Assembly: GCA_012520725.1 (NCBI GenBank)
Contig: JAAYNQ010000079.1
Coordinates: forward strand, 1 to 64,000
DNA from: Syntrophomonadaceae bacterium
Lineage (GTDB): Bacteria; Bacillota; Syntrophomonadia; Syntrophomonadales; Syntrophomonadaceae
DNA: 64,000 nt
Direction: 5' to 3'
Positions 28,187-47,946 of this stretch are shown here, in pieces. Position numbers and translations under genes: made by a program. The stretch's first letter is position 1. Each line of letters opens with the position of its first letter. The notes below the pieces were generated by a model that was not told where the DNA came from, made no database searches, and saw only the letters and a program-made list of their open reading frames with translations.

Positions 28187-28614
28187 CGCAGATCCCTCAG
28201 CTTTCTGTTGGGTCCCAGTTTTTTAACGTCTTCTACCACTTTTTTCATGGTTTCCTGGAACTTGGGTCCTTCGGCTCCGGATATCCAGGCGGTCTGGTAT
28301 CTTCCCGGCTCCATGCCGATATATTCCATCAGGCTCTTTATCATAGTATGACGACGGCGGTTGTAGTAATTGCCACTACCATAGTGGCAGTCTCCCGGGT
28401 GTCATCCGGAAAGGAGTACGCCGTCGGCTCCCCGGTTAAATGCTCTTAAGACCAGCATGGGGTCCATGCGTCCTGAGCAGGGGGTCCTTATTATTCGCAC
28501 ATCGGCAGGATACTCCAGGTGGTTTAGCCCGGCTAGGTCTGCTGCTGCATAGCTGCACCAGTTGCAGGCGAATACTATCACCTTGGGTTCCCACTTTTCT
28601 TGATCTATAGACAC
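28183..28614 (-). CDS. flxD: FlxD/MvhD-like [2Fe-2S] subunit, selenoprotein
   Basis: 143 aa when the in-frame TGA at 28402-28404 is read as selenocysteine (Sec71). The two halves match the MvhD/FlxD family across the codon: VLRAFNRGADGV before it and Sec-HPGDCHY after it, where the usual residue is Cys (or Sec in some methanogens). Other ligand cysteines are C17, C20, C46 and C76. A strong SECIS-like hairpin (28371-28389) starts 12 nt after the TGA. The protein joins Flx to HdrA. Its ATG overlaps the hdrA end by about 10 nt, and its stop overlaps the flxC start. Confidence 0.9.
28371..28389 (-). promoter_or_regulatory. Bacterial SECIS-like element of flxD
   Basis: On the transcript, UGCCACUA pairs with UAGUGGCA (8 bp) around UGG, beginning 12 nt after the UGA. 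The loop region holds GGU, as in bacterial SECIS hairpins bound by SelB. Confidence 0.75.
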
Positions 28615-30596: not shown

Positions 30597-30626
30597 GGCC
30601 TAATCCCTCCTTTTTCAAGTATTAAT

Positions 30627-31820
30627 CTATTTCTCCCGTTTCTTTAATTCTCCATTAACATAGGCTTCGGCTGCTTTGCTGGCTTTTTCCTGGTCGCTGA
30701 CCATCAGCTCAGCCAGTTTATTTATTTTCTTTTCATCAGATACTACTATCTCGGCCAATATCTTGGCCCGTTCTTCATCCTTTATCAGCCTTAGTGCCAT
30801 TTTGTCCGGATTCTTCTGGAATCCTTTGATCATGGCCTCTATTTTCTTTTGCTTGGCTTCGGTATCCTCTTCGCTGTCTGCTGCTTTGGCAGCTCCTTTT
30901 TTCCCGGCCTTGGCTTGTTTGGCTGCTTCTTCGGCTTCCATTTGGGCTGCCTTGGCAGGCAGGGTATTTAGATAAAGACCGGCTTCTACGAAGTGCCGGG
31001 GTATGCCTACTTCCTCCTGAGAGTATCCCCCAGCCAGGGCTAGCAGCTCGGTAAGGTAATATACCGGCATATTTAAGCTTACTCCGTATTGTTTTTCGGC
31101 CCCGGCCTGACGCATATCCAGATTGAGCATGCACAAGGGACAGGCGGTTACTATACATTCGGCTCCGGCTTCCCGGGCGTTTTCTATTACTTCATAGATC
31201 ATTTTGGCTCCGATTTCGGGCCGGGAGGTGGCCAGAGCCGCTCCGCAGCACTCGGTTTTATAGGCCCAATCTACGGCTTGGGCCCCAGTGGCTTGCACTA
31301 TCTTGTCCATGCTCTGGGGATCTTCGTTGTCATCAAATCCGGTATACTCTTGGGGTCTAACTAATAGACAGCCGTAATAGCAGGCTGCTTTCATGCCTTT
31401 TAACGGCTTCTTTACTTTCTCTTTTATCTTTTCTATCCCTACATCTTGGGCCAGCCATTCTAATACTGATATGGTATGACTGCTGGCTTTAAATTCCATA
31501 TCTATGATTCCTTCGATTTTGGAGCGTAAGGCTTCGTCTTCCCGGGCTTTTATCTCGGCCGCCCGATGACGGCTAAAACAGGCTGCACACGGCGCCAGTA
31601 CGGTTTTCAGTTCCATTTGCTCCGCAATGGCCAGGTTCCGAGCCGGCAGAGCCAGGGCCAATAGCTGCTTGGTGTTATGGGCTGAGGTAGCTCCACAGCA
31701 ATTCCAGTCTTCCAGTTCTTTTAATTCTATCCCCAGCATCTCGGCCGTCTTCTCCGTGGACATTTTGTATTCAATGCCACTTCCTTCTCCTGAACATCCA
31801 GGATAGTATCCTAAAGGCAT
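30627..31820 (-). CDS. hdrB: Heterodisulfide reductase-like subunit B (HdrB) with C-terminal extension
   Basis: 397 aa from ATG 31820 (GGGGAGGG upstream). Two CCG domains carry the unusual [4Fe-4S] catalytic clusters: YYPGCS, WNCCGATS and LAPCAACFSRH in the first; CYYGCLL, TECCGAAL and CPLCMLNLD in the second. The family is about 290-300 aa; here about 100 extra residues, rich in Ala, Lys and Glu and predicted helical, follow residue 290. HdrB reduces a disulfide (CoM-S-S-CoB in methanogens); the bacterial substrate is not known. Two bases separate its ATG from the hdrC stop. Confidence 0.92.
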   Translation of the reverse strand: MPLGYYPGCSGEGSGIEYKMSTEKTAEMLGIELKELEDWNCCGATSAHNTKQLLALALPARNLAIAEQMELKTVLAPCAACFSRHRAAEIKAREDEALRSKIEGIIDMEFKASSHTISVLEWLAQDVGIEKIKEKVKKPLKGMKAACYYGCLLVRPQEYTGFDDNEDPQSMDKIVQATGAQAVDWAYKTECCGAALATSRPEIGAKMIYEVIENAREAGAECIVTACPLCMLNLDMRQAGAEKQYGVSLNMPVYYLTELLALAGGYSQEEVGIPRHFVEAGLYLNTLPAKAAQMEAEEAAKQAKAGKKGAAKAADSEEDTEAKQKKIEAMIKGFQKNPDKMALRLIKDEERAKILAEIVVSDEKKINKLAELMVSDQEKASKAAEAYVNGELKKREK

Positions 31821-31821
31821 A

Positions 31822-32391
31822 TTATTCCCTCCCCATCGTCTCAATTCGCTGGAATATTTTCTTTACCTGGTCTCTGCCTTTGATCCTGTCAGGGAGTATT
31901 GATACTTTGCCTCTTTTCATCATGGGCAGACCAAGTTCAGCGTCTTTAAAGGGCTGCATGGTCTTTAGGTTATGCTGCAGCAATAACCCGGCTTCATAGG
32001 TGCGGCCAAAGTTCTTGACCCCGTTTAAAAAGGCTTCGTTAAATACCGCTACTTTTTTATCCCTTATCTTGCCGGCTGCCAGGGCTTCTCTGCGGCAGGC
32101 GTCCATTAAGGAAGCTATATCTACTCCCCGGGGACAGCGGGCTGAACAGGTTTCACAGGTGGCACATATCCATATGCTCTCTGCTCCCATTACCTCTTCC
32201 ACCAATCCCAACTGTAAATATCTGATTATCTGCCGGGGGGGACTGTCCATGGCAAATGCGGCCGGACATCCTGCTGTACACTTTCCGCATTGATAACAGA
32301 GCTTGATATCGGTTTCTGCCGCTTCTTCTATCCGGGAGATAAATTCCTTTTCTGCTGCGCTGGGTCCTGCTAGCTTGAGGCTTTGCTTCAT
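31822..32391 (-). CDS. hdrC: Heterodisulfide reductase-like subunit C (HdrC)
   Basis: 189 aa with two [4Fe-4S] motifs, CYQCGKCTAGCP and CATCETCSARCP, the standard HdrC arrangement. It passes electrons from HdrA to HdrB. First gene of the operon on the minus strand; AAAGGAG before the ATG, with promoter region and a perfect inverted repeat (32468-32486) upstream. The complete order hdrC-hdrB-hdrA-flxD-flxC-flxB-flxA makes this an NADH-linked Hdr complex, plausibly coupling NADH, ferredoxin and a thiol/disulfide pool. Confidence 0.93.
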   Translation of the reverse strand: MKQSLKLAGPSAAEKEFISRIEEAAETDIKLCYQCGKCTAGCPAAFAMDSPPRQIIRYLQLGLVEEVMGAESIWICATCETCSARCPRGVDIASLMDACRREALAAGKIRDKKVAVFNEAFLNGVKNFGRTYEAGLLLQHNLKTMQPFKDAELGLPMMKRGKVSILPDRIKGRDQVKKIFQRIETMGRE

Positions 32392-32467
32392 GCTCTTTCT
32401 CTCCTTTCCTCGTGTTCTCGTATATATAAAACGGCATCATCTATAATGCTCGTCTTAAATTACCAAA

Positions 32468-32486
32468 TGCAGCAAAATATGCTGCA
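32468..32486. promoter_or_regulatory. Inverted repeat upstream of hdrC
   Basis: TGCAGCA and TGCTGCA form a perfect 7-bp inverted repeat with a five-base spacer, 77 bp before the hdrC start. A candidate operator or leader hairpin for the Flx-Hdr operon; the rest of the 32392-32703 gap is AT-rich with no gene seen. Confidence 0.45.
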
Positions 32487-32703
32487 CACAGCTCAATAAA
32501 ACCATTAAATATGATAACTATTTCGCTACGTTACTACATTATATAATAAATATGACTCATAATGCTGTTAAAACTTTGTTAATCTTCATACTTTTTAGTC
32601 AAAAGTACACAATACTGTATCGATATATATACATAATTGTATACAGATACAGGTATAAGTAAGTTTTAGAACTTATTAGAACTTTTTAGCCCTATTGCTG
32701 TTT

Positions 32704-33177
32704 TTATGCTCTTAGAGTAGCTACTATCCGCAGCGGATTAATCAATAGATTCAAAGCATCATTTATACTATTCACTGCAATATCTGCTGCCTGCAAAGCC
32801 TGTATGGAGCATCCTTCAGCTTCTATTACTACTATGGATAAAGCAGCCTGGGCAAGCATCAAACGATCGTTATACCCGTTACCTATGGCTACACAATTAT
32901 GGGCGGACATTGAATTCAGAAGGCCCAGTTTATGCTGTCCTCCATCTTCTGGGTCCACCATAAAGCAATTTACCCCTAGTTCCTTTGCAATTTCCCTGCC
33001 AGCTCCATAAGTATCAGCAGTTAAAATATAAATCTGCAGTTTTTCTTTTAGCAACTCTACCCTTTCTTTAACCCCGCTTATAAGCTTCCCGTCCACTGTC
33101 AGAGTTCCGTTTAAATCCAACAGCAGATTCTTTAATTGTAGAGTAGTCTGCCGCCCGGGTAAGGAAACTTCAATCAT
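32704..33177 (-). CDS. HAD-superfamily protein, soluble P-type ATPase-like
   Basis: 157 aa. HAD motif I is LLDLNGTLTVDG with D21 as nucleophile but Asn23 in place of the usual acid/base Asp; this DxN/T-GT form resembles the catalytic domain of P-type ATPases. The Thr motif (ILTADTYG) and the GNGYNDRLML metal motif are present. There is no membrane segment. It is called a soluble P-type ATPase-like phosphatase; substrate unknown. Its reading frame starts 13 kb from any similar gene and it is monocistronic. Confidence 0.85.
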   Translation of the reverse strand: MIEVSLPGRQTTLQLKNLLLDLNGTLTVDGKLISGVKERVELLKEKLQIYILTADTYGAGREIAKELGVNCFMVDPEDGGQHKLGLLNSMSAHNCVAIGNGYNDRLMLAQAALSIVVIEAEGCSIQALQAADIAVNSINDALNLLINPLRIVATLRA

Positions 33178-33594
33178 GCTATACCTCCTAGGTTAAACGC
33201 TGCTACCTCAGACTATATTCTAACACCCTTTGAGCTTAGAATAAATAATATTTCCTTGCATAAGCACCACTATTTGACAAATTTCGTCATTAAACCATAT
33301 AATATGTCGAATATAAATACCTATTTTTGTGCAGCAAGTTGTAAACCCCCGTCTTTCCATACACTATTTTCCAGCATAAGTCTGGCCGGCTTGCACATAC
33401 TAAGGCTACAGTCAATGATACCTCAACCTTTTAAAGCACCAAGGTTCCTTTAACTAGGAAATCTGTTACTTTAAAAGACAGGAGCTGCTAATGCAGCACA
33501 TGAACCGGTATCATTGGCTGTTTATTTTCTACGCCTGCTTTAACTAATTGAAGGGAATAAAAGATGAAGGTTAAAATAAATCTTACATTTAAGC
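33178..33594. other. Gene-free AT-rich region
   Basis: Spacer between the HAD gene and the membrane protein gene. A GGAG-preceded 18-codon frame at about 33491 is the only small ORF noticed, and it is too short to support. Confidence 0.35.
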
Positions 33595-34074
33595 TTAGTT
33601 ATCTCTCGGCTTGATAAACGAGATTCTGCTGGGTTGGTTAAAATCGAACCTGGTCTTAGGATACATAAATGAGGCTATCCCAAGATAATATAGAAAGCTT
33701 ATGAAAGGCAAATAGATTAAAAGGTAGTAATAAATTGGTTTATCAAAATAGAAATACCATCCCGACAGAGAAATCACACCCAACAAAGGAGTAAACCAGA
33801 ATTGTAATAAAAAGATAGCATATTCATATACTCCCATCAAATTAAAGGAAGTAATAAGTATTAAAGCCCATAGAATTCCAGGAGCCTGCCAGATCAATGC
33901 AGTCAAGCTTTGCTTCCACCGGGGTAGCTGATAAGCTCTCCTGGCCTCGAATCCAATGAGCAGCAGATATAATAGAGCAACTAAGATATCCATTCCAGGA
34001 AAGTAAGTACTAAGGATGCCGGCTGCAATAGCTGTTATATGAATAAAATACAATCTACTTAAGTTTACCGGCAT
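33595..34074 (-). CDS. Hypothetical membrane protein
   Basis: 159 aa with four to five predicted transmembrane helices: residues about 10-28, 30-45, 65-82, 90-108 and 115-135. It has aromatic-rich stretches (YYYLLIYLPFISFLYYLG) and a basic C-terminus (ISFIKPRDN). Not a recognised family. Its ATG abuts the stop of the amidase-like gene, so the two form an operon and may be a membrane partner pair for an envelope enzyme. Confidence 0.6.
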   Translation of the reverse strand: MPVNLSRLYFIHITAIAAGILSTYFPGMDILVALLYLLLIGFEARRAYQLPRWKQSLTALIWQAPGILWALILITSFNLMGVYEYAIFLLQFWFTPLLGVISLSGWYFYFDKPIYYYLLIYLPFISFLYYLGIASFMYPKTRFDFNQPSRISFIKPRDN

Positions 34075-34701
34075 TTAAACTCCTCTCTCTCGAATAATAC
34101 TAATCTGCTCACTCTTATAAAAAATATCGGGGGAAATCCACAGATCCCGGCTTGGGTCCAGATCAATGCCCTCTTCCAGATAAGCTCTCCAAATAAGCTT
34201 GCTGCAGTTCCATATCCTTTCGCCAGGCTTGAAAGCCAGGGCATAAAACATCTTTCCTTGCAAGCTTTGGGCATATTCTACCGCTTTCTCCTTGATTTCA
34301 GGCTCCGCTTCCACCCGCAGCAGACAGACTTCTTTATAATCACGGAAGTGATCAATAGGACGTATATGTACTCCATAATCAACAAAAGCCTCTATAACCT
34401 GACCATTGCCTACATACATGGCTACGTGAGAAAAACGGCCATAGGCACAGTCTGGATAACCACCCAGTATTATGTCTCCGATCTCCAGGCCGGAGAAAGA
34501 TATATCGTTAGCATACCGAATACTGTTGCCGTAACCGAAGTTGCCTTTTGCTGCATTATCTATATAAAGATACATAACCGCCTCCGGGTTCTCAAAAACT
34601 GTACGATTAGTGTTTAGCAGCAAGGCATAGAATACCAGCGCCAGTAGAGGGAACAGCAGTAAGGCGAATTTGTCCAGCCTGGTTTTGGAGTTAGATTTCA
34701 T
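34075..34701 (-). CDS. YiiX/NlpC-P60-like papain-fold hydrolase, membrane-anchored
   Basis: 208 aa. An N-terminal hydrophobic segment (about residues 12-28) anchors it. The segments GDIILGGYPD and FSHVAMYVGNGQVIEA (His) and the later WNCSKLIWRAY (Cys) are the active-site layout of permuted papain-like hydrolases of the YiiX/YebB group, where the Cys comes after the His. These act on amide or ester bonds in cell-wall peptides or lipids. The catalytic motif is intact. It is followed by a multi-pass membrane protein encoded in the same operon. Confidence 0.72.
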   Translation of the reverse strand: MKSNSKTRLDKFALLLFPLLALVFYALLLNTNRTVFENPEAVMYLYIDNAAKGNFGYGNSIRYANDISFSGLEIGDIILGGYPDCAYGRFSHVAMYVGNGQVIEAFVDYGVHIRPIDHFRDYKEVCLLRVEAEPEIKEKAVEYAQSLQGKMFYALAFKPGERIWNCSKLIWRAYLEEGIDLDPSRDLWISPDIFYKSEQISIIRERGV

Positions 34702-35172: not shown

Positions 35173-35940
35173 ATGAATTTTATTGGCATCGATATTGGAT
35201 CAACTGCCGCCAAAACTATTGTCTTTGACGGTACCCGAATAATATCTTCTTTTATTCTGCCTACCGGTTGGAGCAGCAAAGAGACGGCTGGTCAAATCAG
35301 AACTCATCTGAGAACGGCAGGTTTTGATGTGGATTCTGATGATACCAGAACCATCGCTACCGGTTATGGGCGGATATCAGTGGAATACGCCGACAAGATA
35401 TTAACTGAAATCAGCTGCCATGGAAAAGGCGGGTCTGCTCTTCTGGCCGGAGATGGAGTCATAATCGACGTAGGAGGGCAGGACACCAAGATTATTACGG
35501 TAGAAAATGGGGTTGCCGTACGTTTTTTAATGAATGATAAATGCTCGGCCGGAACCGGTAAATTTATTGAGATAATGGCCAACCGCATGGGGGTGGATAT
35601 CAATGAGTTATTTGCCCTGGCTCAAAAGGGCAACCCCATAACCATTAGTTCCATGTGTACAGTTTTTGCCGAATCTGAGGTAATCAGCCAGATAGGTGCC
35701 GGTAAATCCAGAGAAGATATCACCGCCGGGATTGTGGAATCAGTTGTCTCCCGGGTCGCCCTTCTGGCCTCCAGGCATGAAAAGCCGGATAAATATTTCC
35801 TTACCGGCGGCTTAAGTCTTAACCCCTATTTTGCGAAACGATTATCCCAAAAACTGGGGCAAGCGGTGTACACCTGTGAGATGGGACAATATGCGGGAGC
35901 TCTAGGCGCCGCTCTGCTGGCAGCGGAAAAACTCCAATAA
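35173..35940 (+). CDS. BadF/HgdC-type ATPase activator (double-cubane reductase reductase)
   Basis: 255 aa, ASKHA-fold ATPase with a bridging [4Fe-4S] cluster. GIDIGSTAAKT at the N-terminus, DVGGQDTK, and the two cluster cysteines C124 (KCSAGTG) and C162 (MCTVFAESE) are all conserved. These proteins use ATP hydrolysis to drive a low-potential electron into a partner Fe-S protein. The partner here is the next gene, 41 bp downstream. GGGAGG precedes the ATG. The pair matches DCCP plus DCCP-R more than 2-hydroxyglutaryl-CoA dehydratase, since no second dehydratase subunit is present. Confidence 0.92.
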   Translation: MNFIGIDIGSTAAKTIVFDGTRIISSFILPTGWSSKETAGQIRTHLRTAGFDVDSDDTRTIATGYGRISVEYADKILTEISCHGKGGSALLAGDGVIIDVGGQDTKIITVENGVAVRFLMNDKCSAGTGKFIEIMANRMGVDINELFALAQKGNPITISSMCTVFAESEVISQIGAGKSREDITAGIVESVVSRVALLASRHEKPDKYFLTGGLSLNPYFAKRLSQKLGQAVYTCEMGQYAGALGAALLAAEKLQ

Positions 35941-35981
35941 GCTTTGGGGCTTATTTTTGGCACATAAGGGGAGGAATTGTA

Positions 35982-37130
35982 TTGTTAAAACTGCCTGAAA
36001 ATTTTCAAGATTATTCAGAAGCTCGCCAACAAGGATTTATCAAGTTAAAAGAGCTGAAGGAAAGGGGCAAGAAGGTGGTAGGGATTTTCTGTACCTATAC
36101 TCCTACCGAAATGGTCCTGGCCGCTGGAGCGGTACCGGTTGGCTTATGCGGGATGAGCGATGAACCCATCCCCGCTGCAGAAAAGTTCCTGCCTAAAAAC
36201 TTATGCCCCCTTATTAAATCCAGCTATGGTTTCGCGGTTAGCGACACTTGTCCCTATTTCTACTTTTCCGATATGATCCTGGCTGAAACCACTTGCGACG
36301 GCAAAAAGAAAATGTATGAAATGATGAATGAGCTTAAATATACTCATGTTATGCAGCTGCCCCCGGGCAGAAGCGGAAGCACTGCCCTGCACTCCTGGTA
36401 TGATGAGATGCTGCGCTTGAAAGAAGTTTTAGAGCAGCAATTGGAGACAGTGATTACCGAGGATGATTTGCGTAATGCCATTCGCCTGAAGAATCGGGAG
36501 AGAAAAGCCACCCTGGATTTTTTTGAAATAGGTAGACTGAAACCCTCCCCTGTATCCGGCTATGAAATCAGCACTATCATGGATAGCAATAGCTTTATCT
36601 TCGATACTGAAGAAAAAATTGCCATTTTGGAGGAACGCACCGCCCAATTGAAGAAAGATTACCAGGAAAATTTCGCCGGCAAGCCATCACGGCCCAGGAT
36701 ATTGATTACCGGCTGCCCCAGCGGTGGGGTTAGAGATAAGATTATTCGTCAAATTGAAGAATTGGGCGCTGACATGGTTGCCTTTGAAAACTGCTCCGGC
36801 CCCCGGGCTCAAAAAGATTTAGTAGCTGAAGACAAAGATCCTTATTTAGCTCTGGCGGAAAAGTATCTTCGCATAAATTGTTCAGTAATGAGTCCTAATC
36901 CGGAAAGAATTGAAGCCCTGGGAGAAATGCTGGATGAGTACAGTGTTGATGGAGTTATCGAAATAATTTTGCAAGCCTGCCATACTTTTGCCATTGAATC
37001 GTATCGGGTGAGGAAATTCGTTACCGAAGAAAAGGGGCTCCCCTATATGGCCCTGGAAACCGATTATTCACAGACTGATACCGGGCAGATAAATACCAGA
37101 ATCAGTGCTTTTTTGGAAATCATTGATTAA
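35982..37130 (+). CDS. Double-cubane-cluster-type anaerobic reductase (HgdB/BcrC-like)
   Basis: 382 aa, TTG start with GGGGAGG upstream. It belongs to the 2-hydroxyacyl-CoA dehydratase subunit D/BcrC family. Cysteines in CTYTP, LCPLIKSS, SDTCPYFY and ETTCDGKKKMYE (N-terminal half), and ITGCPSGG, ENCSGP and LQACHTF (C-terminal half), would bind the iron-sulfur clusters. With a single catalytic subunit and an adjacent activator it fits the double-cubane cluster proteins of Carboxydothermus type, which do very-low-potential reductions of small substrates. Native substrate unknown. Confidence 0.88.
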   Translation: MLKLPENFQDYSEARQQGFIKLKELKERGKKVVGIFCTYTPTEMVLAAGAVPVGLCGMSDEPIPAAEKFLPKNLCPLIKSSYGFAVSDTCPYFYFSDMILAETTCDGKKKMYEMMNELKYTHVMQLPPGRSGSTALHSWYDEMLRLKEVLEQQLETVITEDDLRNAIRLKNRERKATLDFFEIGRLKPSPVSGYEISTIMDSNSFIFDTEEKIAILEERTAQLKKDYQENFAGKPSRPRILITGCPSGGVRDKIIRQIEELGADMVAFENCSGPRAQKDLVAEDKDPYLALAEKYLRINCSVMSPNPERIEALGEMLDEYSVDGVIEIILQACHTFAIESYRVRKFVTEEKGLPYMALETDYSQTDTGQINTRISAFLEIID

Positions 37131-37229: not shown

Positions 37230-37326
37230 TGCTCTTTATGCTTTTATTGGACTTATTAGTATCTTAAACCTTTCTACTGCTTCCTGCTTGGGTTAAAATA
37301 AATAAAAACTGGTGTGGTGTACCTTT

Positions 37327-38019
37327 ATGAGAACTATACTCAGAAAATTGGATGGAAGGAAAACCTTGACTGAAAGGGAATACCAGGATCTCCTGCAATA
37401 CATCGATGCTCTTGGTGATAGTTCTATGGAATCCTATCGATTATTTTATAATAGATATTCTGAAGTTTTATGGCAAGAATATACAGTGTATATACCTAAA
37501 TTCAAACACGGAATGGATGACCTGCTTAATTTTTTGCTATATCATCCAGAATTAATGAGTCAAATTCAAAAGACGGCTAATTGCTTGAAACTGTTTCCCT
37601 TGGAATTGCATCCTTACCTTTCCTACCTGCTGGAGCAGGAGCAGGACTGGGCTTTAATTAAGAAAATAAGCCGTTCCCTGTCCCGATCCTTAAGCAAACG
37701 GCCCCAGCTGCCCACAGCTCGTAAAGGGAATGCAGTATTAAAATACGAGAGGGGTAATCCATACAAGGAAATTGGACTAAAGCCCCATTTTGAACGTTTA
37801 GCCCGCTACGGATTTATTACCCGTCTACAGTCTTACCGCTATTTACAACGTGGTAAGGCCAGTCAAGATAGAATAAGTGTTCTGGATGCCGGCAGATTAG
37901 GGGGCATATACACCAATAAGGAGAAATCCATCTACTATTATATCTTTCTAAGCGAAACAGATATGATAAAGGCTGAAAATGCCTGTTTGGCATTAAATAC
38001 CGCCTTGTACGGTTTATAA
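37327..38019 (+). CDS. Unknown protein, first gene of Hsp70-like operon
   Basis: 230 aa from ATG 37327; a GTG 15 bases earlier lacks a better site. No known family recognised. It is soluble, with a helical N-terminal half (LTEREYQDLLQYIDALGDSS) and a basic centre (KISRSLSRSLSKRPQLPTAR). The C-terminal part (VLDAGRLGGIYTNKEKSIYY) may form a beta structure. No signal peptide or membrane segment. It opens a tight four-gene operon and ends 10 bp before the next gene. It may be a substrate-binding or adaptor partner of the Hsp70-like ATPase at the end of the operon, by position only. Confidence 0.7.
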   Translation: MRTILRKLDGRKTLTEREYQDLLQYIDALGDSSMESYRLFYNRYSEVLWQEYTVYIPKFKHGMDDLLNFLLYHPELMSQIQKTANCLKLFPLELHPYLSYLLEQEQDWALIKKISRSLSRSLSKRPQLPTARKGNAVLKYERGNPYKEIGLKPHFERLARYGFITRLQSYRYLQRGKASQDRISVLDAGRLGGIYTNKEKSIYYYIFLSETDMIKAENACLALNTALYGL

Positions 38020-38029
38020 GGAGTAGAAT

Positions 38030-39511
38030 ATGTCCAATCTTTCCGGGGGTTTAAGTGAGTTTATGCAAAACCAGGATCTATTTAGCATGTGGGAGAAGGA
38101 GTTGCACTTAAGGCATGAGATTCGACTGGGCAATAAGGCAGCTCTAAATATTCCTCTAGCCAAAGCTCATGAACTGGATCTTTATTATCGCAGTTGGTAT
38201 TTCTCTCCCCGGCGAATGGACTTTTTTAGATTATTAATCGAACAATTGAATAATACGGACAATATAGAGGTACTAAAATGGCTGGGAGATGCGCCGGACC
38301 ATCTGCAGCAAAACTTTTGGACTTTTCTGCCCTGGTATATCCTGCTGCATGCTCCAAATCCATCCCAACTTCAGTTTATTGTAAATCTCTACCGTCCGGA
38401 ATTATATCAGGAAATGCTGCAGGTGGTTAATGCTCTTAATCTTGAATCCTGTGAGTACCTGGCCTCCAGGACTGCCAATTCCCAACTACGCAAGCTGTTT
38501 AAAGAGCGCTCCAATGATTTGATGGCCAGTCGGAAAAGAGAATACTATGGTTTTGATCCCCGGGTTAAAAGGGATAATTTTCCCGGTATATACGGGAATA
38601 AAACTGATATTATCCTCAAAGCCTTGGATTTCCTGGACCAAAGTCGAGCTACTAACTACAAGGACCCTTATGGTTCTGAACGTTTTGCCATGTACCTGGA
38701 GGCTGCCGAGGCGGTTTTCCAGGCTGGATTGCCGGAAGACTGCCTGGCCATGCTCTTGGATCTCTACCAGGATTACCAGCGCAAAAGCCGCCTGGTAGAT
38801 CTCTTGGAGGATGAGAAAATCCATCGCAGTTTTTCCCGGCTCTTGCGGCAGGTAATCCCCTGGCAATCCTTGCTGAGACAAACACTGAACCCTTATGACA
38901 TGGCTGATAAACTCTATTTGGACTTTTTTCCGTTAATAACCCGAGATCCAGGCAGCCTGAAATATCTTTCCCTCTATGAAAGTATTACAGCAGGTTTAAA
39001 TCAATTGCAGTCCAATATAATCTACGAAATATATCTAAAAAGCAGTACCCTTATGGAGGTACGGCCTTATGAGCCTCCATGGATTGAGCAGGAGGAACTG
39101 GAAACAGGAATCGGCGTTGGTCGCGCCCGTACCCTCTTCCAAAGCGCAGCACAAAAAATATCATCTCTGCCCCATGAGTCTTTTATACTCATTGAGTACC
39201 TGCGTCTGGGCTTTATGCTAAAAAAGATCAGTCCGGATGCTGCAATGATATCGGAAATGATGGAATATTACCTGCTGTTATGGGACTGGCTGCCTCTGCC
39301 CATGTTTATGAACCAGGATATCTATATCCAACTTGCTCCCTGGGCTGCCAAAAGCCAGCAACAAAAAGCCAGGCAGATTTGTGATCTCTTATCAGAATAT
39401 AAATTGCCCCGGCTGCTGGAGGAAATATCCTCCCGTCCGGAATTACTGAGAATGAAAGAAGCTGGACCCAAACGCCAGCTTCTAAATGGCTATTTTCTGG
39501 GGGTCTTGTAA
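38030..39511 (+). CDS. Unknown large helical protein of the Hsp70-like operon
   Basis: 493 aa with AAGGAG before the ATG. No recognised domain. Almost entirely alpha-helical in composition, rich in Leu, Tyr and Trp (SMWEKELHLRHEIR, QNFWTFLPWYILLH, LWDWLPLPMFM). Repeated short helices suggest a TPR- or HEAT-like scaffold, but I could not define a clear repeat period. It has no signal peptide. The stop overlaps the ATG of the next gene (TAATG), showing translational coupling. Confidence 0.75.
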   Translation: MSNLSGGLSEFMQNQDLFSMWEKELHLRHEIRLGNKAALNIPLAKAHELDLYYRSWYFSPRRMDFFRLLIEQLNNTDNIEVLKWLGDAPDHLQQNFWTFLPWYILLHAPNPSQLQFIVNLYRPELYQEMLQVVNALNLESCEYLASRTANSQLRKLFKERSNDLMASRKREYYGFDPRVKRDNFPGIYGNKTDIILKALDFLDQSRATNYKDPYGSERFAMYLEAAEAVFQAGLPEDCLAMLLDLYQDYQRKSRLVDLLEDEKIHRSFSRLLRQVIPWQSLLRQTLNPYDMADKLYLDFFPLITRDPGSLKYLSLYESITAGLNQLQSNIIYEIYLKSSTLMEVRPYEPPWIEQEELETGIGVGRARTLFQSAAQKISSLPHESFILIEYLRLGFMLKKISPDAAMISEMMEYYLLLWDWLPLPMFMNQDIYIQLAPWAAKSQQQKARQICDLLSEYKLPRLLEEISSRPELLRMKEAGPKRQLLNGYFLGVL

Positions 39512-41079
39512 TGAAGGATAATCTTAAAGCCGAAAACTACTTACAGAATTTGGAGCATTTTTTATTTCTGCTTCGAAAAGAAGTAGACTCCCTTAGCCGG
39601 CAATACCAGTCAGATACTCTTTCTACAGAGGATCTAGACCATTACCTGCTGGCGGTCAATTCCTTTTATTACCGCAGCTTTCAGGAGAAATTCTGGCCTC
39701 TTTACCAAAAAGAAATAAACCAAGAGGTAAACAACTTGCTGAATATTAAGCTGCAACAGAGCCAGCTTAGCAAGTATGTAGCAGCTCTTATCAAACGCCA
39801 TGCTCATCTGTTTAATCAGGTTAAGACCTGGTCTAATCAATTGCAAGGTTTAAAAAGGCAGATTTCCGATCTTGTTTTATCATTTCAGGATGAAATAGAC
39901 CGGCAAGTACTGGAACTGGTCTATAGCCTTAAAGAATTAGGAAGCCAACTTCGAGAGCTGGACAGCTTTATGCAGGAGCTGAAGGTCTTGTTAAACAAAT
40001 TGCAAAGCTGGCCCAAAAGCCAGCAGCTTCAGTTTATGCTTACCTCTGCCAGATCCCTTGCCGGTACTTTGAACATGGACTATAGCAGCAGGTATTACCA
40101 TATGCTGAAACAGCAAAAGCTGATCATGGATTTGCTGAACAAAAGCCAGCTAGAGGATAATATCCGCTTAGACCGGATAAAACGCCTGCGCCAGCAGATC
40201 CTGGAATATGTTTCCACTGACGGGGACCATTTGGACAGCTTTTATCAAATTCAGATTCAGTCCCGGGCTCTCCATTATACGGAACTTATCATTCTGCATA
40301 TACAGTTGGGCAACTCTTCTCGAGTGCAGGAACTGCTCCAGGAATTTGCAGAATTTTATACTGCCTGGGGGGAATTGCTGGACCTCTTGCTTAGCCATCA
40401 CAGCAATCCAGCCTTAATCCAACTGCCCGAATTATATAGACTCCAGCTTAGCCAGCCTGGCTACCTGGAAGAGCTATATTATGATCTTACTTCCACCTTC
40501 GCCTCCATAAATTCACTGGAACAGGAACTTGACAGGAGTCCTAAAGCAGACTTCAACTATCTCTGCCAGGAGCTGCAAAATCTTCTGCAAATATCGGCTC
40601 CCCTCTATCAAGCCATGGCCCAGGAGTGTTCCCGCCATAAATTGGAGCAGCTTACTAATCGTTTGCAAGTGATAAACCGGGGCTGGGAATCGTTGGATAT
40701 TAGGATGAGGCTTATTGTCGAAGAGTACCAGCACAGTGCTGAATTAATCAAATATAATGAAAAAGCAGTGGCTTTACTGGATGGACATCTTATACTGCTG
40801 GATAATATCCGGCATGATTTGGAAAGGCTACTGACTCCACGTAATCTAACCCGAATATGGAAGGATTTTGATATCAGAGTAACTCATATCCCACTAACTC
40901 CAGGCCAAGTATTGCCTGCTCCATACTTATATCTTCTGGATAAGTACCATATCGCTACCAGGCTGGTTGAGGAGGCAGATAATACTATATTAGAGGCCCA
41001 GGGAGACATCTTCTTGATAAGGGTGGAGGATGAAAGCAGCGAAGAAATCCCTTATTTCATTGTCGGTCGGAAAGGATAG
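39511..41079 (+). CDS. Unknown coiled-coil protein of the Hsp70-like operon
   Basis: 522 aa. About 440 residues are heptad-like coiled coil with many Leu and Gln (e.g. NQLQGLKRQISDLVLSFQDE, ELGSQLRELDSFMQELKVLL). The last 70 residues form a different, probably beta-rich domain ending DIFLIRVEDESSEEIPYFIV. Soluble; no membrane segments. Coiled-coil partners of Hsp70 proteins include nucleotide-exchange factors such as GrpE, but no GrpE motif is visible. Starts inside the stop of the previous gene and ends 6 bp before the Hsp70-like gene. Confidence 0.75.
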   Translation: MKDNLKAENYLQNLEHFLFLLRKEVDSLSRQYQSDTLSTEDLDHYLLAVNSFYYRSFQEKFWPLYQKEINQEVNNLLNIKLQQSQLSKYVAALIKRHAHLFNQVKTWSNQLQGLKRQISDLVLSFQDEIDRQVLELVYSLKELGSQLRELDSFMQELKVLLNKLQSWPKSQQLQFMLTSARSLAGTLNMDYSSRYYHMLKQQKLIMDLLNKSQLEDNIRLDRIKRLRQQILEYVSTDGDHLDSFYQIQIQSRALHYTELIILHIQLGNSSRVQELLQEFAEFYTAWGELLDLLLSHHSNPALIQLPELYRLQLSQPGYLEELYYDLTSTFASINSLEQELDRSPKADFNYLCQELQNLLQISAPLYQAMAQECSRHKLEQLTNRLQVINRGWESLDIRMRLIVEEYQHSAELIKYNEKAVALLDGHLILLDNIRHDLERLLTPRNLTRIWKDFDIRVTHIPLTPGQVLPAPYLYLLDKYHIATRLVEEADNTILEAQGDIFLIRVEDESSEEIPYFIVGRKG

Positions 41080-41085
41080 TGAAAA

Positions 41086-42789
41086 ATGCATCTGGGTATC
41101 GATATGGGAACTTCATATACCAAAATCGCAGCCTTATCCCAGGGAGAGTGGTTGGATCTGGGCCAAGAATCCATTCCCAGTGTAGCTGCCTATGTACCTG
41201 CCACCGGCAAACTATATTTTGGCTGGCTGGCTCTACGCCTGGATGAACCAAGCATTGAGAAAGCCTTCTTTTTTAAACTGGATTTAAAACGCTATCCTCA
41301 CTATTACCTGGGACCTTATAGTTTAAGCCAGGTAATAGAGAGTTTTTTTGCTTTTCTATACCATGAATATATAGCAAAACAATGCCCTGAGCTGCATTCT
41401 CTAACTCTAGCCGTACCCAACTATTTTGGATTAAAAGCCCGGCAAATACTGTTGGAAGGGGCCCGCCAGGTATTTGGCCTTAGAGAAATTTACCTGCTTC
41501 CGGAACCCTTAGCCGCCTTATTGGCTTACAACACTCTTAACCCCTCCTGTCCATTGGAAGGCAGCGTGCTCAGTATAGATATTGGAGGGGGAACCACTGA
41601 TTTTAGTTTTTTGGATCTGGCCGGTCAGCGGCAGGAAATGATTTTGGAGTCCCAGTTCCAAATAGGCTATGATGCCTTTTCCGGTTCCGAGCTGGATCAA
41701 GGTATTATTCGTAATATTTTTTTCCCCCTTTACCACTTACAAAGCGGCCAGACTATACCGGAAAGATTTATCAGTGCCAAGGCATTAAATAGCTTTGAAC
41801 GCCAGCTTTACCAGTACTGGCTGGTGGAAGCGGAGAAGCTCAAGCTGGAAATCAGCCAACGGGGATGGGCCGCCTTTCATTTGACTGATTTCTTTAGAGG
41901 CTTTTCCATCCATTCCCATATGGAACAAGATTCCTTTCTGGATTGTCTGGAACCCATATATAATCGGCTCCGTTTGTATTGCCAGGGAATCTTAAGGGAC
42001 CGGGCCACTTCATTGGGATTAGCCGGCAGCCAGGGATGGAATCTGGATGCTATTTTGCTTCAGGGAGGAGCTTCCCAGTCCCCCCAGGTAGAAGAGATTA
42101 TCCAGGAATGTTTTCCAGGCATACCGTTGACCAAAGCCAACTCAATTAACCTGGTGGCCCAGGGATTATGTTACTGGAAGGCCTATTCCCACCATCGCTT
42201 TAGTAATCTGAAAACTATATACCCTTTCGACTTCTACCAGGAAGTCTACGATATCAAGGAAGGACAAAGTTATCTGGCTCGAATCCCCTTTGATACCGCT
42301 AATCTGGAACTGGATGTAGATGGCCGTTACCCTATATTATCCCTGCTTCCTCCCTCAGAACTCAAGATAAAGGAAGAAAATTCATTTTCCCTGAAAATAT
42401 TTGAAGTAGCTCAGGGAGAAGGTAACACCACCAGTGAACGCTTCCAGGGCATGGAAGCAGTTTTGGACCTGAACTGGCAAGGGAGCCATATTCCGCAGCA
42501 TTTAAAAGTGTATTTAAATTTAGCTGAAAGCTGCCTGGAAGCGTCAAGTGAAGAACTGACCCTCACCAGGCGGGAAACAGATTTTTCACTTTTTCCTGAT
42601 TGGCTCAATGGGCAGCTCAGATCCCTGGAAATACTTAAAAGCTATAAATACCTTAATCCACATCTTATTGAGGATTTGGAGGCTTGCCTGAAAAAGGCCG
42701 GAGAAGAAATGCAATTCCCTTATGAAAACCATGCTGAAATTGTGTATTATAAGCTATTATGCCTCTTGCAGATTTTGGATAGCCGGTAA
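41086..42789 (+). CDS. Hsp70/actin-superfamily ATPase, divergent (non-DnaK)
   Basis: 567 aa. It has the complete ASKHA nucleotide site: phosphate-1 GIDMGTSYTK (4-13), phosphate-2 SIDIGGGTTDFS (163-174), connect segment LPEPLAALLAY (138-148) and adenosine motif LLQGGASQSPQ (324-334). After about residue 370 comes a short beta-rich region and a helical end (shorter than DnaK's 638 aa, no EEVD or DnaK lid similarity). Hsp70-like fold is clear, but it is not the housekeeping chaperone: no dnaJ or grpE nearby. It is the last gene of the four-gene operon, with 6-bp spacing. Confidence 0.9.
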   Translation: MHLGIDMGTSYTKIAALSQGEWLDLGQESIPSVAAYVPATGKLYFGWLALRLDEPSIEKAFFFKLDLKRYPHYYLGPYSLSQVIESFFAFLYHEYIAKQCPELHSLTLAVPNYFGLKARQILLEGARQVFGLREIYLLPEPLAALLAYNTLNPSCPLEGSVLSIDIGGGTTDFSFLDLAGQRQEMILESQFQIGYDAFSGSELDQGIIRNIFFPLYHLQSGQTIPERFISAKALNSFERQLYQYWLVEAEKLKLEISQRGWAAFHLTDFFRGFSIHSHMEQDSFLDCLEPIYNRLRLYCQGILRDRATSLGLAGSQGWNLDAILLQGGASQSPQVEEIIQECFPGIPLTKANSINLVAQGLCYWKAYSHHRFSNLKTIYPFDFYQEVYDIKEGQSYLARIPFDTANLELDVDGRYPILSLLPPSELKIKEENSFSLKIFEVAQGEGNTTSERFQGMEAVLDLNWQGSHIPQHLKVYLNLAESCLEASSEELTLTRRETDFSLFPDWLNGQLRSLEILKSYKYLNPHLIEDLEACLKKAGEEMQFPYENHAEIVYYKLLCLLQILDSR

Positions 42790-43070: not shown

Positions 43071-43874
43071 ATGATTAATACCTTTGCACTGCATCCAGCT
43101 GCATCAAAAAGTCTGATCGCTCGTGCCGTATGCCAGTTACCGGAGGTAAAACAGGCCTGGCAAAATGGTAAAATCTTTATCGGCCATGGCAGCACCAATG
43201 TGGCCGTAGCTCAGGAACTTTTAAACATAAAAATTGAACATCCGGAACAGTATATATCCGGGGTCATCTCCCAAGGGGTGGCCTGTGCCACTGAGCCCCA
43301 GGGGCGACTTAAGCCTTGGTGTATAGAACGAGGCCGGGTCCTGGATGTGGATTGGATTGAATTTGTAAACACATTTGAAGCCGGTGATATTTTTATTAAA
43401 GGCGCCAATGCCATCGATCCTGGCGGCAATGTGGGAATACTCCTGGGTGACCTGCAGGGAGGTACTATAGGCAAATCCATCGGTATCTTGAAGGCTCGGG
43501 GAATACAGATCATTGTTCCGGTGGGACTGGAGAAAATGATTCCTTCTTGCCTGGCAGCCCAAAAGTTGATGGGAATAGAAAAAAGTGCTGGAACATTGGG
43601 AATGAAAAGCGGATACATAACCCTGTCCGATGCCACTATCATAAGCGAAATAGAGAGTTTGAAGATATTGCTGGACTTAGACGCCATTCAGGTAGCAGCA
43701 GGAGGAGTGGGGGGCATGGAAGGGGCAGTTGTACTGGCAGTTAATTATAAAGATGAAGCCACTGAACAGGAACTTTTCAAGTTAATCAAAGGACTATCCC
43801 GGAAACAAAGGTTGAACATTAAACGAAAAAGCTGCCGGGACTGTGAGGATCCCTGCGTTATGCTTGATAATTAA
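43071..43874 (+). CDS. Conserved protein of unknown function with C-terminal Cys motif
   Basis: 267 aa, ATG with AAAAGGAG upstream. I do not recognise the family. Features: an N-terminal GHGSTNVAVAQEL loop that could bind a nucleotide or CoA, as in NagB/CoA-transferase folds (only a resemblance); several Gly-rich turns (GANAIDPGGNVG, AAGGVGGMEG); and a C-terminal CRDCEDPC that could hold a metal or Fe-S cluster. Soluble, no signal. It stands alone, with a convergent MerR-type gene downstream. Confidence 0.7.
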   Translation: MINTFALHPAASKSLIARAVCQLPEVKQAWQNGKIFIGHGSTNVAVAQELLNIKIEHPEQYISGVISQGVACATEPQGRLKPWCIERGRVLDVDWIEFVNTFEAGDIFIKGANAIDPGGNVGILLGDLQGGTIGKSIGILKARGIQIIVPVGLEKMIPSCLAAQKLMGIEKSAGTLGMKSGYITLSDATIISEIESLKILLDLDAIQVAAGGVGGMEGAVVLAVNYKDEATEQELFKLIKGLSRKQRLNIKRKSCRDCEDPCVMLDN

Positions 43875-43900
43875 GTTAAGAAAAAAGTGTTAAGTGCTCT

Positions 43901-44404
43901 TTACTTGCCGCGGAAACGGGAAAACCAGGATTTTGGTTTTCCCTCCTGTTCCGCTTTCCATAATTCCAAGAACTCGGATATGGTTTTTTCCCTTTCCTGA
44001 TTGCGCTTATCCAATTTCTTCTCTATGCGTTCCATTCTCTCTTCCATTTTTCGGTTCTGTTCCAGCAAGGCTTGGTTTTGCTCAATAATTTTGGACGCTA
44101 TATTAAGCACTTCGACCAATTCCAGCTGAGACGGGGCTCTGGTACTAGGTAGAGTGCTTTCAGCCGAAGAGCCTGCAGCCTCACTATTCTCCAGAGCCAT
44201 CTTTATCGCGGTGGTATTCAATCCTTTTTCTTTAAGTTGAAGTACCAGGCGCAGGGTATCCACGTCCTTTTCGCTGTACAAGCGGTCACCCCGTTCATCC
44301 CGCTTAATCTTCAGGCGCAGGGTACTTTCCAGATAGCGCAGAGTATGTTGCTCAATTTTCAACATCTCTGATACTTCACCAATTTTATAAAATATCTCCT
44401 TCAT
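43901..44404 (-). CDS. MerR-family regulator with coiled-coil tail
   Basis: 167 aa. Residues 5-75 form a MerR winged helix (YKIGEVSEMLKIEQHTLRYL, then RDERGDRLYSEKDVDTLRLV). A low-complexity Ser/Ala linker follows, then a basic coiled coil (ASKIIEQNQALLEQNRKMEE...) ending KSWFSRFRGK. There is no metal- or drug-binding cysteine. This arrangement resembles small RacA/YfeR-like MerR proteins in Firmicutes. Convergent with the unknown gene 43071-43874. Targets unknown. Confidence 0.8.
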   Translation of the reverse strand: MKEIFYKIGEVSEMLKIEQHTLRYLESTLRLKIKRDERGDRLYSEKDVDTLRLVLQLKEKGLNTTAIKMALENSEAAGSSAESTLPSTRAPSQLELVEVLNIASKIIEQNQALLEQNRKMEERMERIEKKLDKRNQEREKTISEFLELWKAEQEGKPKSWFSRFRGK

Positions 44405-44634
44405 CTGTAACCTTTCCCGCTTTCATTTCATAAATTGTTAGCAGGTAGGTCAATAAAGTATAATTCAGCTAAGATCGGTAGTTCAAGACTTAAAAGGAAT
44501 TTATTAGATGCCCGATTTTCTGTCACCATTTATTAACTTAAGAAATAATCTGAGAATTAACTTTATTGTTCACCTGCGACTTTCCCTTCCAAATCTATAT
44601 GCTCAGCTTTATATTTTTAGTATAAATAATGAGC

Positions 44635-44666
44635 AAGGCCGTCCTAAAAGGTCGGCTTTTTTTTTT
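44635..44666 (+). terminator. Terminator-like hairpin with long T-tract
   Basis: AAGGCCG pairs with CGGCTTT (one G-U) and continues into an 11-base T run. It lies in a gene-free stretch (44405-44838) on the plus strand; the transcript it ends is not clear. Confidence 0.55.
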
Positions 44667-44731
44667 GCCCGTGGGCTGGTCACCCCCCATGACCAGGGAC
44701 ACAAGCGAATGGGAAAATTGTTGTTTATGCC

Positions 44732-44755
44732 GGGCGGGCGGTCCAAGACCGCCCC
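44732..44755. repeat. Dispersed palindromic repeat, copy 2
   Basis: GGGCGGGCGGTCCAAGACCGCCCC, a near-perfect palindrome shared with 12-35 and (inverted) 53859-53881. Intergenic. Best-preserved copy. Confidence 0.6.
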
Positions 44756-44776
44756 TATAATATGCTGGGAGATATG

Positions 44777-44806
44777 AAAAAGAGGCCATCCTTTGAGGAC
44801 AGCCTC
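44777..44806 (-). terminator. Terminator of the acyl-CoA dehydrogenase gene
   Basis: On the minus strand GAGGCTGTCCT pairs with AGGATGGCCTC (two G-U pairs) around a CAA loop and runs into TTTTT, about 32 bp after the stop. Confidence 0.8.
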
Positions 44807-44838
44807 CATTTATCAATTTAATAGTCTATCAGCTATTC

Positions 44839-46677
44839 CTAATAATCAAAAGCTTCGACAGGAATTTCCAGGGCTGAACGATCGCCCAATTCTACAATAT
44901 CAGTCAAAACCCAGACATTGGGAACTACATTGAGCAGGTAGTACCTGGCCGACAAAACCTTGCCTAAATAGAAGTTGTAGTCGTAATGTTCAGGACCTAC
45001 TTCCTTAGCTTTCTTATCAGCCAATATCGCCTGATCCAGTATGCAGCGACCGGCATATAGCTGAGATAAAGCAGTCAGAATTCGCCGTGAATACAAGGGC
45101 ATCATGCTAAAGTCGCCTTTACCCAGGTATCCCTGCATAAGCTGCAGAGTCTTATTCATGGCTTTAAAGGCTTTTATAAATACTTCGAACTCCTGTTTGA
45201 GAGTATCGTTATCTTTGTTGGCTTCATAGAAGCTATACATTTCCTTCATAAAATTCTGGAAGGGAACCCCTTTACCCATGGTCATCTTGCGTCCGCAGAG
45301 GTCCAGGGACTGTATGAAGTTGGTACCTTCCCAGATGGAATAAATCTTCATATCCCGGGCAATTTGAGCCACCGGATATTCTTCACAATAACCATAGCCA
45401 CCATAAACCTGAATAGCTTCAGCGCACAGCCACCAACCTTCATCACTGGGATAAGCCTTACATAGTGGGGTGGTTATTTCCACCAGCAGATTGGCTTCTT
45501 TTCTCTTCTCCGGATCAGGATCGTGTTCTCTTACATCGAAGGCAAAATAGGTCTTGTAGAGCATAGCTCTCATGGCTTCCACATGAGCCTTGCCCAACAA
45601 CAGGGTTCTCCTAATATCCTCATGATTGATAATTGCTGTACGTCCTGCCTTGGGATTGGTGAGAAGTCTCCCCTGTATCCGTTCCTTAGCATAATCACGA
45701 GCATTATACATGGCATTGGCAATACAGGAAGCGGCCAAATGACCTGTCTCCATCCGGGCCATGTTCATCATCTGGAACATTTGAGCCATGCCTTCTCCTT
45801 TGCCTTCATTCTCCAGAGGATGCTTACCCAAAAGCCAGCCCCGGCAGGCATTATTCTCACCGAAACTCAAAGCTGCAGTACATGAACCATGTTGTCCCAT
45901 CTTATGTTCGATGCCGGTAGTCTCTACATCATTAGGTTCCAGACTGCCGTCCTCGTTAACCCAGTATTTAGGGACTACAAACAACGAAATTCCACTAGTC
46001 CCTGGTCTTGCACCTTCTACCCGGGCCAAATAGAGGTGAATTATATTTTCGGTAAAATCATTATCCCCAAAGGTTATGAAAATTTTATTGCCTTTGATCT
46101 TAAATATCCGGGGATCTTCAGTGGGAAAAGCTTTAGCCAGGATATCCCCCACATCAGAACCCGCACTGGGTTCAGTAAGGCACATGGTACCGGACCAGGT
46201 ACCATCCATCATTTTAGGCAGGAACATGGCTTTTAGCTTCTCATCGCCAAAACTCTGAATCAGGCCGGCAGCTCCGCTGGTTAGGATAATGGTAGGCAGA
46301 AAAGTGGGATTGGCAGCTCCTATCAATTCAAAGACGGTTGAATGCAATATATGGGGCAGAACCATGGCATCTTCAGAATCGTCTATGTTACTGGTTCCCC
46401 AGCCTTCTTGCTGCAGTTGATGGAATAAAGGCCCAAAGCTTGGTGAACAGGTTACCTTACCGTTTTCAAACTTAACCGGGTTTTCTTCCCCATCGGTATT
46501 GCTTGGTTCGACAACTTCTTTACACATTTTTAAAATCGGAGCCATAAATGATTTAACGTCTTCTTTGGAATAATAATCAGCAAATTTGGGATAGGAAAAT
46601 ATTTCCTCGGTAGGAAGCCATTCCTGCAGAATGAATTCCAAATCCCTGGTATTTAGATACGCAAAATTAGCAGCCAT
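44839..46677 (-). CDS. Large acyl-CoA dehydrogenase
   Basis: 612 aa from ATG 46677 (GGAGGGGG upstream; 18 further residues to 46731 are unlikely). It belongs to the long, about 600-aa subfamily (DmdC/AidB-like) with an N-terminal helical cap, the FAD- and substrate-binding signatures CLTEPSAGSDVGD and YGGYGYCEEYPVAQIARDM, and the extra C-terminal domain of this group. It oxidises acyl-CoA to enoyl-CoA and passes electrons to ETF. Candidate for a beta-oxidation step in a syntrophic fatty-acid oxidiser; chain length unknown. Monocistronic, with its own terminator. Confidence 0.93.
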   Translation of the reverse strand: MAANFAYLNTRDLEFILQEWLPTEEIFSYPKFADYYSKEDVKSFMAPILKMCKEVVEPSNTDGEENPVKFENGKVTCSPSFGPLFHQLQQEGWGTSNIDDSEDAMVLPHILHSTVFELIGAANPTFLPTIILTSGAAGLIQSFGDEKLKAMFLPKMMDGTWSGTMCLTEPSAGSDVGDILAKAFPTEDPRIFKIKGNKIFITFGDNDFTENIIHLYLARVEGARPGTSGISLFVVPKYWVNEDGSLEPNDVETTGIEHKMGQHGSCTAALSFGENNACRGWLLGKHPLENEGKGEGMAQMFQMMNMARMETGHLAASCIANAMYNARDYAKERIQGRLLTNPKAGRTAIINHEDIRRTLLLGKAHVEAMRAMLYKTYFAFDVREHDPDPEKRKEANLLVEITTPLCKAYPSDEGWWLCAEAIQVYGGYGYCEEYPVAQIARDMKIYSIWEGTNFIQSLDLCGRKMTMGKGVPFQNFMKEMYSFYEANKDNDTLKQEFEVFIKAFKAMNKTLQLMQGYLGKGDFSMMPLYSRRILTALSQLYAGRCILDQAILADKKAKEVGPEHYDYNFYLGKVLSARYYLLNVVPNVWVLTDIVELGDRSALEIPVEAFDY

Positions 46678-47295
46678 TTTAATAAACCCCCTCCAATATA
46701 ACGGCAATCCACTAATTACTTCCAGTATCACCCCTTATTAATACCGGCAGCACAGTAGATGCCCCCTCTGAATCAACTACATAATAATCCCCCTAATATC
46801 GTTGATAAACTTTTGGCAACCACCCCCCTGATCCTACACAGGCCCGCGACAATGGAATTGTTTTCTTTTTTGTCTACCCATTGGCTGCAGATATTTCTAC
46901 ACTGATCGATGTAGAAATGTGTCCATATATGGCTGTCAAATAAATTTTTTTGGATATTCTCTATATTCTAACCCTATCCGCATTAATCCTCTTTTCAGGC
47001 TGAAGTTTAAATTTTCAAAATTGTCGGCCCAGGATTACTTATTGCTTGAAAAATACGCTTAGCATCCTAAGTTGTAATACATACTAAATCATCTCCGGCC
47101 TGTATAAGCTGATAGTATTCTTCTCAAGCAAGCAGCTTTCTGAGGCTTAAGAAAATAATCACAATATAGACAGGATTTTGGCCTCAGATGTTGAATTTAT
47201 TCACTGATGTTTTTAACTCTCATAAATAACGACGAAGGGAGTGAAAAAGCGCTTTTTAGATTATGGGGGGAATATAGTATTTGGGGGAGGAAATT
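46678..47295. other. Divergent promoter region, acyl-CoA dehydrogenase and SatP
   Basis: About 600 bp without a gene, AT-rich in part. It holds promoters of both flanking genes. No convincing sigma-54 or riboswitch element was recognised. Confidence 0.4.
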
Positions 47296-47946
47296 ATGGC
47301 TGACGTAAAAGAAGTAAAAATATCGGGACATATACAGGAGACGGTAGCTAACCCATCGGCACTGGGTCTATTGGGTTTAGCCATGGTCACCCTGGTAGCT
47401 TCATCGCAAAAGTTGGGAATAACGGACGGTACCATGTATATTATACCCTGGGCTCTGTTTTTAGGAGCTATTGCCCAGTTTGTGGCAGGTATTTATGACT
47501 TTAAGCACAACAATACTTTTGGCGCTACTGCTTTCTGCGGTTATGGTTTTTTCTGGTTTGCCGTGGCTACCACCTGGATGATGTCCAACGGAACTATAGG
47601 CGCTGCTGATGGAATAAGCGGGGATATTCACCAGCTGGGCTTTGCTTTTCTGGGTTATTTCATTTTCACGGTTTATATGACCATAGGAGCTATGGGAGCC
47701 AACAAGGTTCTCTTTATAATCTTTTTCTTAATCGATTTACTTTTCCTGGGTCTTTTTATGAGTACCCTGGGGTGGGGCGGAGAAGCCTGGCACGAACTGG
47801 CCGCTTACTCTGAATTCGGTATTGCCATTATGTCTTTCTATGGTTCGGCTGCTAATGTATTGAATAGCCATTATGGCTATACCGTTTTACCGCTTGGAGC
47901 CCCTTTTGGATCCTGGCACAAAAAAGCCCAGGCTTTGAAGAAATAA
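47296..47946 (+). CDS. satP: SatP/YaaH-family acetate/succinate transporter
   Basis: 216 aa from ATG 47296 (GGGGGAGG upstream; a TTG at 47281 sits within that site). It has six transmembrane helices and the family signature NPSALGLLGLAMVTLV near the N-terminus. SatP proteins carry acetate and succinate across the membrane in a proton- or channel-like manner. Acetate is a main product of fatty-acid oxidation, so export is a plausible role. Ends in a terminator at 48076-48103 shared with the converging glucosaminidase gene. Confidence 0.93.
   Translation: MADVKEVKISGHIQETVANPSALGLLGLAMVTLVASSQKLGITDGTMYIIPWALFLGAIAQFVAGIYDFKHNNTFGATAFCGYGFFWFAVATTWMMSNGTIGAADGISGDIHQLGFAFLGYFIFTVYMTIGAMGANKVLFIIFFLIDLLFLGLFMSTLGWGGEAWHELAAYSEFGIAIMSFYGSAANVLNSHYGYTVLPLGAPFGSWHKKAQALKK

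Follow-up and report, generated by a model that had tools for sequence, protein, structure and literature searches.

A four-gene module of Syntrophomonadales pairs three new protein families with a divergent Hsp70 whose ATPase has been lost repeatedly

Hsp70 proteins are usually described as inseparable from their ATP cycle, and a divergent Hsp70 that closes a tightly packed operon raises the question of what it does beside three partners that resemble no known family. In a 64,000-nucleotide stretch of DNA from a Syntrophomonadaceae bacterium (hereafter the window), four open reading frames, named A, B, C, and D, follow one another in that order on the plus strand (Table 1). The same frames and close coupling that the initial annotation had listed were recovered, with 10 bp between A and B, a TAATG overlap of B and C at 39509-39513, and 6 bp between C and D; the corresponding median gaps in homologous loci are 5, -4, and 5 bp. 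The start of A was placed at the ATG at 37327 instead of the upstream GTG at 37312, since homologues share an MRxILRKL start. Scans for promoters and terminators performed no better than on shuffled sequences. A literature search with guessed S. wolfei locus tags, which left supplementary tables outside its scope, found nothing on these four genes.

Table 1. Position of the four genes and of the main parts of D in the window
Feature	Position	Strand	Basis or remark
Gene A, 230 aa	37327..38019	+	ORF list, alignment
Gene B, 493 aa, soluble, of no known family	38030..39511	+	ORF list
Gene C, 522 aa, coiled-coil-like	39511..41079	+	ORF list
Gene D, 567 aa, divergent Hsp70	41086..42789	+	PF00012, AF2, Foldseek, hhalign
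D phosphate-1 motif GIDMGTSYTK, residues 4-13	41095..41124	+	Sequence; kept in intact homologues
D phosphate-2 motif DIGGGTTD, residues 165-172	41578..41601	+	Lost in at least four lineages
D C-terminal region, LKTIYPF to end	42208..42786	+	Part best retained in decayed homologues

The order and strand of A-B-C-D were constant in 33 complete related loci across Syntrophomonadales, each with one full copy of every gene, so the expectation that the four genes would stay together in relatives held. Gene A is single-copy in 48 of the 63 genomes of the class, and most of the genomes compared here are MAGs. In samples of 398, 299, and 299 genomes from the phylum, matches to A, B, and the C-terminus of D, respectively, were confined to this class. 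A scan of GTDB with A yielded 42 loci; Syntrophomonas or Syntrophomonadaceae stands in the title of nearly all, and the title of a few is Gelria or simply Bacillota/Firmicutes. The module is thus known so far from one order alone, the Syntrophomonadales, which are fatty-acid-degrading anaerobes. A mobile origin was considered and rejected, as collections of phages, plasmids, and viral contigs held no relatives of A.

The block around the operon is also syntenic across loci, and at least one lineage has lost the module in its entirety. In one genome (G023), only about 290 bp separate the flanking amidase and MerR genes, and none of A-D was detected between them; in two others (G048 and G049), the Hdr, HAD, and MerR flanks are present and A is absent. 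These flanks indicate that the module passes down together with the genes around it and can disappear as a whole.

The partners of D offer few points of comparison. Neither A nor B has a Pfam or NCBIfam match at E<=1, and the Pfam and NCBIfam matches of C, mostly to coiled-coil families, all fall below cut-off. None of the four proteins matches PADLOC, on which ground a defence system was rejected, and D alone matches PHROGs, through its Hsp70/actin nucleotide-binding domain (NBD). Family profile searches of A-C found no J-domain or GrpE match. The initial annotation could place the three partners in no family, and after these searches they are neither assigned to one nor recognizable as J-proteins or GrpE; A, B, and C each represent a new protein family from syntrophic fatty-acid degraders. 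The best-conserved subunit is A (47% mean column identity and 23 invariant columns in the alignment of homologues), in which a helical N-terminal domain (1-125) precedes a highly conserved alpha/beta domain (about 130-230). Its AF2 model has a pLDDT of 86.5, and no PDB or BFVD match to it was significant; partial matches to PH/PTB-like folds recurred only at E>=0.09 and were not counted as evidence. Given the most conserved sequence of the set and a confident model that matches no known fold, A may form the functional core of a complex. A PDB search returned no match for B, while the profile of C, whose conserved motifs are NSFYYRSF near the N-terminus and GDIFI..EEIPY near the C-terminus, matched mostly helical bundles or coiled coils (E>=0.0018).

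The description of D as an Hsp70/ASKHA ATPase with all nucleotide motifs was borne out. The protein matches PF00012 over residues 104-360 (E 5.1e-15; 55.1 bits against a curated Pfam HSP70 cut-off of 20.6) and carries GIDMGTS, DIGGGTTD, and GGAS as its phosphate-1, phosphate-2, and adenosine motifs. The profile of the D family also aligns with Hsp70 NBDs of solved structure (residues 3-366, E 1e-26). Two strongly decayed orthologues (L065 and L070) fall short of the Pfam cut-off. The initial annotation had further stated that D lacks a DnaK-type substrate domain, which is probably wrong: the AF2 model (38 sequences, pLDDT 85.8) continues past the NBD with nine strands (374-488) and three helices (506-565), and an hhalign alignment to DnaKs of the same class covers residues 3-484, placing YPFxFY on DVTPLSL and the later strands in order. 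We therefore regard D as probably a whole Hsp70, with an NBD (about 1-370), a domain resembling the beta part of the substrate-binding domain (SBD-beta-like, about 374-490), and a helical tail (about 506-565). A Foldseek search of the model against the PDB returned DnaK, BiP, and Sse1 (best E 5.9e-27), and several alignments span about 540 columns with TM-scores of about 0.6, a value that the NBD alone could account for. The SBD-beta assignment is probable and not proven, because the C-terminal region by itself gives no profile similarity to DnaK, and the identity of this domain accordingly depends on the model and on alignment in context.

Like DnaK and BiP, which are among its best structural matches, D has, in its model, the order of NBD, beta domain, and helical tail, and it carries the same three motifs. 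Unlike them, it shares only about 15-20% identity with these proteins, has SNLKTIYPF where DnaK has VLLLDVTPL and thus no hydrophobic VLLLD linker, carries a lid of about 60 aa, lies in an operon in which, as had been noted before, there is no dnaJ or grpE, and has orthologues that repeatedly lost the ATPase. YegD/PRK11678 and SrfB are likewise divergent Hsp70-like ATPases outside the DnaK system; the NCBIfam match of D to PRK11678 is weak (5e-16; 58.5 bits, far under the cut-off of 331), SrfB was matched marginally (0.013) by three members of the D family, and neither an Srf family nor any other is matched by A, B, or C. Two further candidates (L074 and L075) proved to be ordinary Hsp70s and were left out of the D alignment. 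The first, a 497-aa protein of a related genome (L074:6074-7564), is encoded inside a chemosensory cluster with CheR, CheA-like, ParA-like, and receptor genes.

To what extent does the module depend on the ATPase of D? In the D alignment, DIGGGTxD is kept by 24 members and missing in 14, and the phosphate-2 motif has been lost in about 20 D orthologues overall. The decayed proteins are open frames of about 340-470 aa, found at the position of D in about 20 genomes from several genera, and the mean occupancy of lobe IIB among them is 7%. One exception (L059, in genome G012) retains lobe IIB with a motif that reads DIGEAAAD, and therefore appears as an intermediate beside its shortened sisters. 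On trees of A+B+C with D excluded, which were quick and had several rows with long branches, the fewest phosphate-2 changes were four (50 rows, LG+G4, quick search) or, on a smaller tree, three (37 rows, mixture model). The changes are read as losses because the outgroup family and the first branches are intact. The decay goes furthest in two genomes (G045 and G046) that have A, B, and C followed within a few bases by a 78-aa ORF in the place of D. Against a profile built from the final 85 residues of D, this ORF in G045 scored 21.6 bits, compared with 9.0 for the best of 500 shuffles; it matches only the tail of D and is a homologue of its last ~65 aa. A literature search for Hsp70 decay of this type found none.

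Cultured strains of both states exist, as D is intact in G040 (linked to S. wolfei subsp. methylbutyratica) and decayed in G047 (linked to S. zehnderi OL-4). In G043 (linked to S. palmitatica), D has the motif and is cut near its end. The same draft genome has B split into two frames (L052), through either sequencing error or decay.

Selection on the decayed copies was assessed by pairwise dN/dS (NG86), in which dS was often near saturation. The ratios were 0.17-0.29 for decayed D and 0.16-0.19 for intact D (three sister pairs), and for the 78-aa tail ORF the ratio was 0.39 (78 codons), a value that alone counts as weak evidence. Of the consensus residues, decayed D has kept 59% in the SBD-beta-like domain and 52% in the tail; for the rest of the NBD the figure is 35-45%. 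A, B, C, and the C-terminal region of D persist under purifying selection. The evolutionary rate of decayed D is somewhat above that of A and C, a pattern that is also compatible with slow loss.

Because at least four lineages lost the ATPase and kept the partners, ATP hydrolysis is not the indispensable function of the module, and D seems to be a structural part here rather than an ATP-driven machine. We propose, with about even confidence for and against, that A-D belong together in the cytosol as subunits or dedicated partners of a single complex peculiar to Syntrophomonadales, with D as a structural or regulatory subunit derived from Hsp70. The SBD-beta-like domain and helical tail at its C-terminus would attach D to this complex. 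Ancestrally, the complex could have been switched or tuned by the binding of ATP to D, and this switch would be optional, at least four lineages having dropped the nucleotide site and mostly lobe IIB too. Decayed D would then be kept as a pseudo-Hsp70 scaffold, with the tail as the sole retained part in two genomes within one decayed lineage. Both the physical association of A-D and its biological role, which as a best guess might be to hold or assemble a specific client or structural assembly, are what we infer from these patterns; counting against a complex, conserved gene order might reflect shared regulation only.

A bolder version is offered tentatively: in a kind of bacterial protein machine not described before, a whole Hsp70 may have been captured as a structural subunit and then stripped of its ATPase and, in one lineage, of its peptide-binding domain, the lid-like tail being the needed part. 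Ssz1, an atypical Hsp70 of the eukaryotic ribosome-associated complex with the J-protein Zuo1 as partner, keeps the Hsp70 fold as a subunit of a fixed complex and does not need ATP hydrolysis. Ssz1 structures (5mb9/6sr6) are among the Foldseek matches of D; there is no sequence link beyond the Hsp70 fold, and A, B, and C are unrelated to the partners of Ssz1.

The initial annotation had suggested a dedicated chaperone or a segregation/remodelling machine. What survives of this is the undescribed, conserved module; the ATP-driven machine fits poorly with an ATPase that was lost at least four times beside retained partners. As an ATP-driven dedicated chaperone, D would fold or remodel a client with C or another partner acting like a J-protein or an exchange factor. 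The nucleotide motifs, all intact in 24 genomes of the tree, the low dN/dS of intact D, and the two-domain Hsp70 model agree with this reading, which we nevertheless consider unlikely in view of the ATPase losses with A, B, and C in place, the missing VLLL linker, and the lack of any J-domain or GrpE match in A-C. The suggestion that C is an exchange factor can hardly describe its main role, because C persists where D lacks the nucleotide site or is reduced to the 78-aa tail.

Slightly less probable still is that D is simply being lost, with A-B-C as the core and the decayed copies as remnants devoid of function. The tail-only ORFs in G045 and G046 would be expected from such a process, and in most decayed sister pairs the dN/dS of D is above that of A and C, but frames of several hundred codons stay in place across several genera, the ratios are well below 1, and retention is domain-selective. 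We regard as very unlikely a cytoskeletal or segregation machine in which D polymerises like the actin-type ParM/MreB and C bundles it; C is a coiled-coil partner and D has weak matches to MreB (E 0.013) and a partition-protein phrog (4.7e-5) over shared actin-fold motifs, but the top 50 Foldseek matches listed are Hsp70/Hsp110 family structures and not ParM/MreB, actin-type filaments use a nucleotide site that decayed D no longer has, and no plasmid or phage link was found. That the operon serves the cell envelope, as do the amidase (C92/NlpC), polysaccharide deacetylase, and glucosaminidase genes that recur beside it, is highly improbable, because parts of the class have these neighbours only in divergent form or not at all, and because genes for Hdr, acyl-CoA dehydrogenase, and an acetate transporter recur just as much.

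The orthologues of D form a natural series, with an intact Hsp70 at one end, then a dead NBD, then the deletion of a lobe, and at the other end a tail of 78 residues, and the same three partners stand beside it throughout. As this series occurs in closely related, partly cultured bacteria, it provides a handle on the ATP-free work of an Hsp70 and on three new families of syntrophic fatty-acid degraders.

The surroundings of the operon were also inspected. In the window, the genes on one side (28605-34701), which diverge, are of Hdr type or encode a HAD hydrolase, a membrane protein, and a C92/NlpC-type amidase; those on the other (43071-47946) encode MerR, an acyl-CoA dehydrogenase, and a likely acetate-uptake transporter, judged by the look of this membrane protein. 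Directly upstream of A are a BadF-type activase and a double-cubane reductase of the HGD-D family (35173-37127); this pair did not recur at the other loci examined and is therefore perhaps a local insertion or rearrangement. In phylogenetic profiles, SpoIVA (sporulation) was nearly universal, PhaC_N was absent everywhere, and FlhA (flagella) had no visible correlation with the module, so these profiles give no hint of its function. In several genera, the gene immediately before A, in the same orientation, encodes a polysaccharide deacetylase (L042:5511-6467 and L065:3594-4562). Two genomes of genus g20 without A have about 2 kb of DNA between the HAD gene and MerR, at the site where the operon would be expected (L202:8745-10866 and L203:5372-7270).
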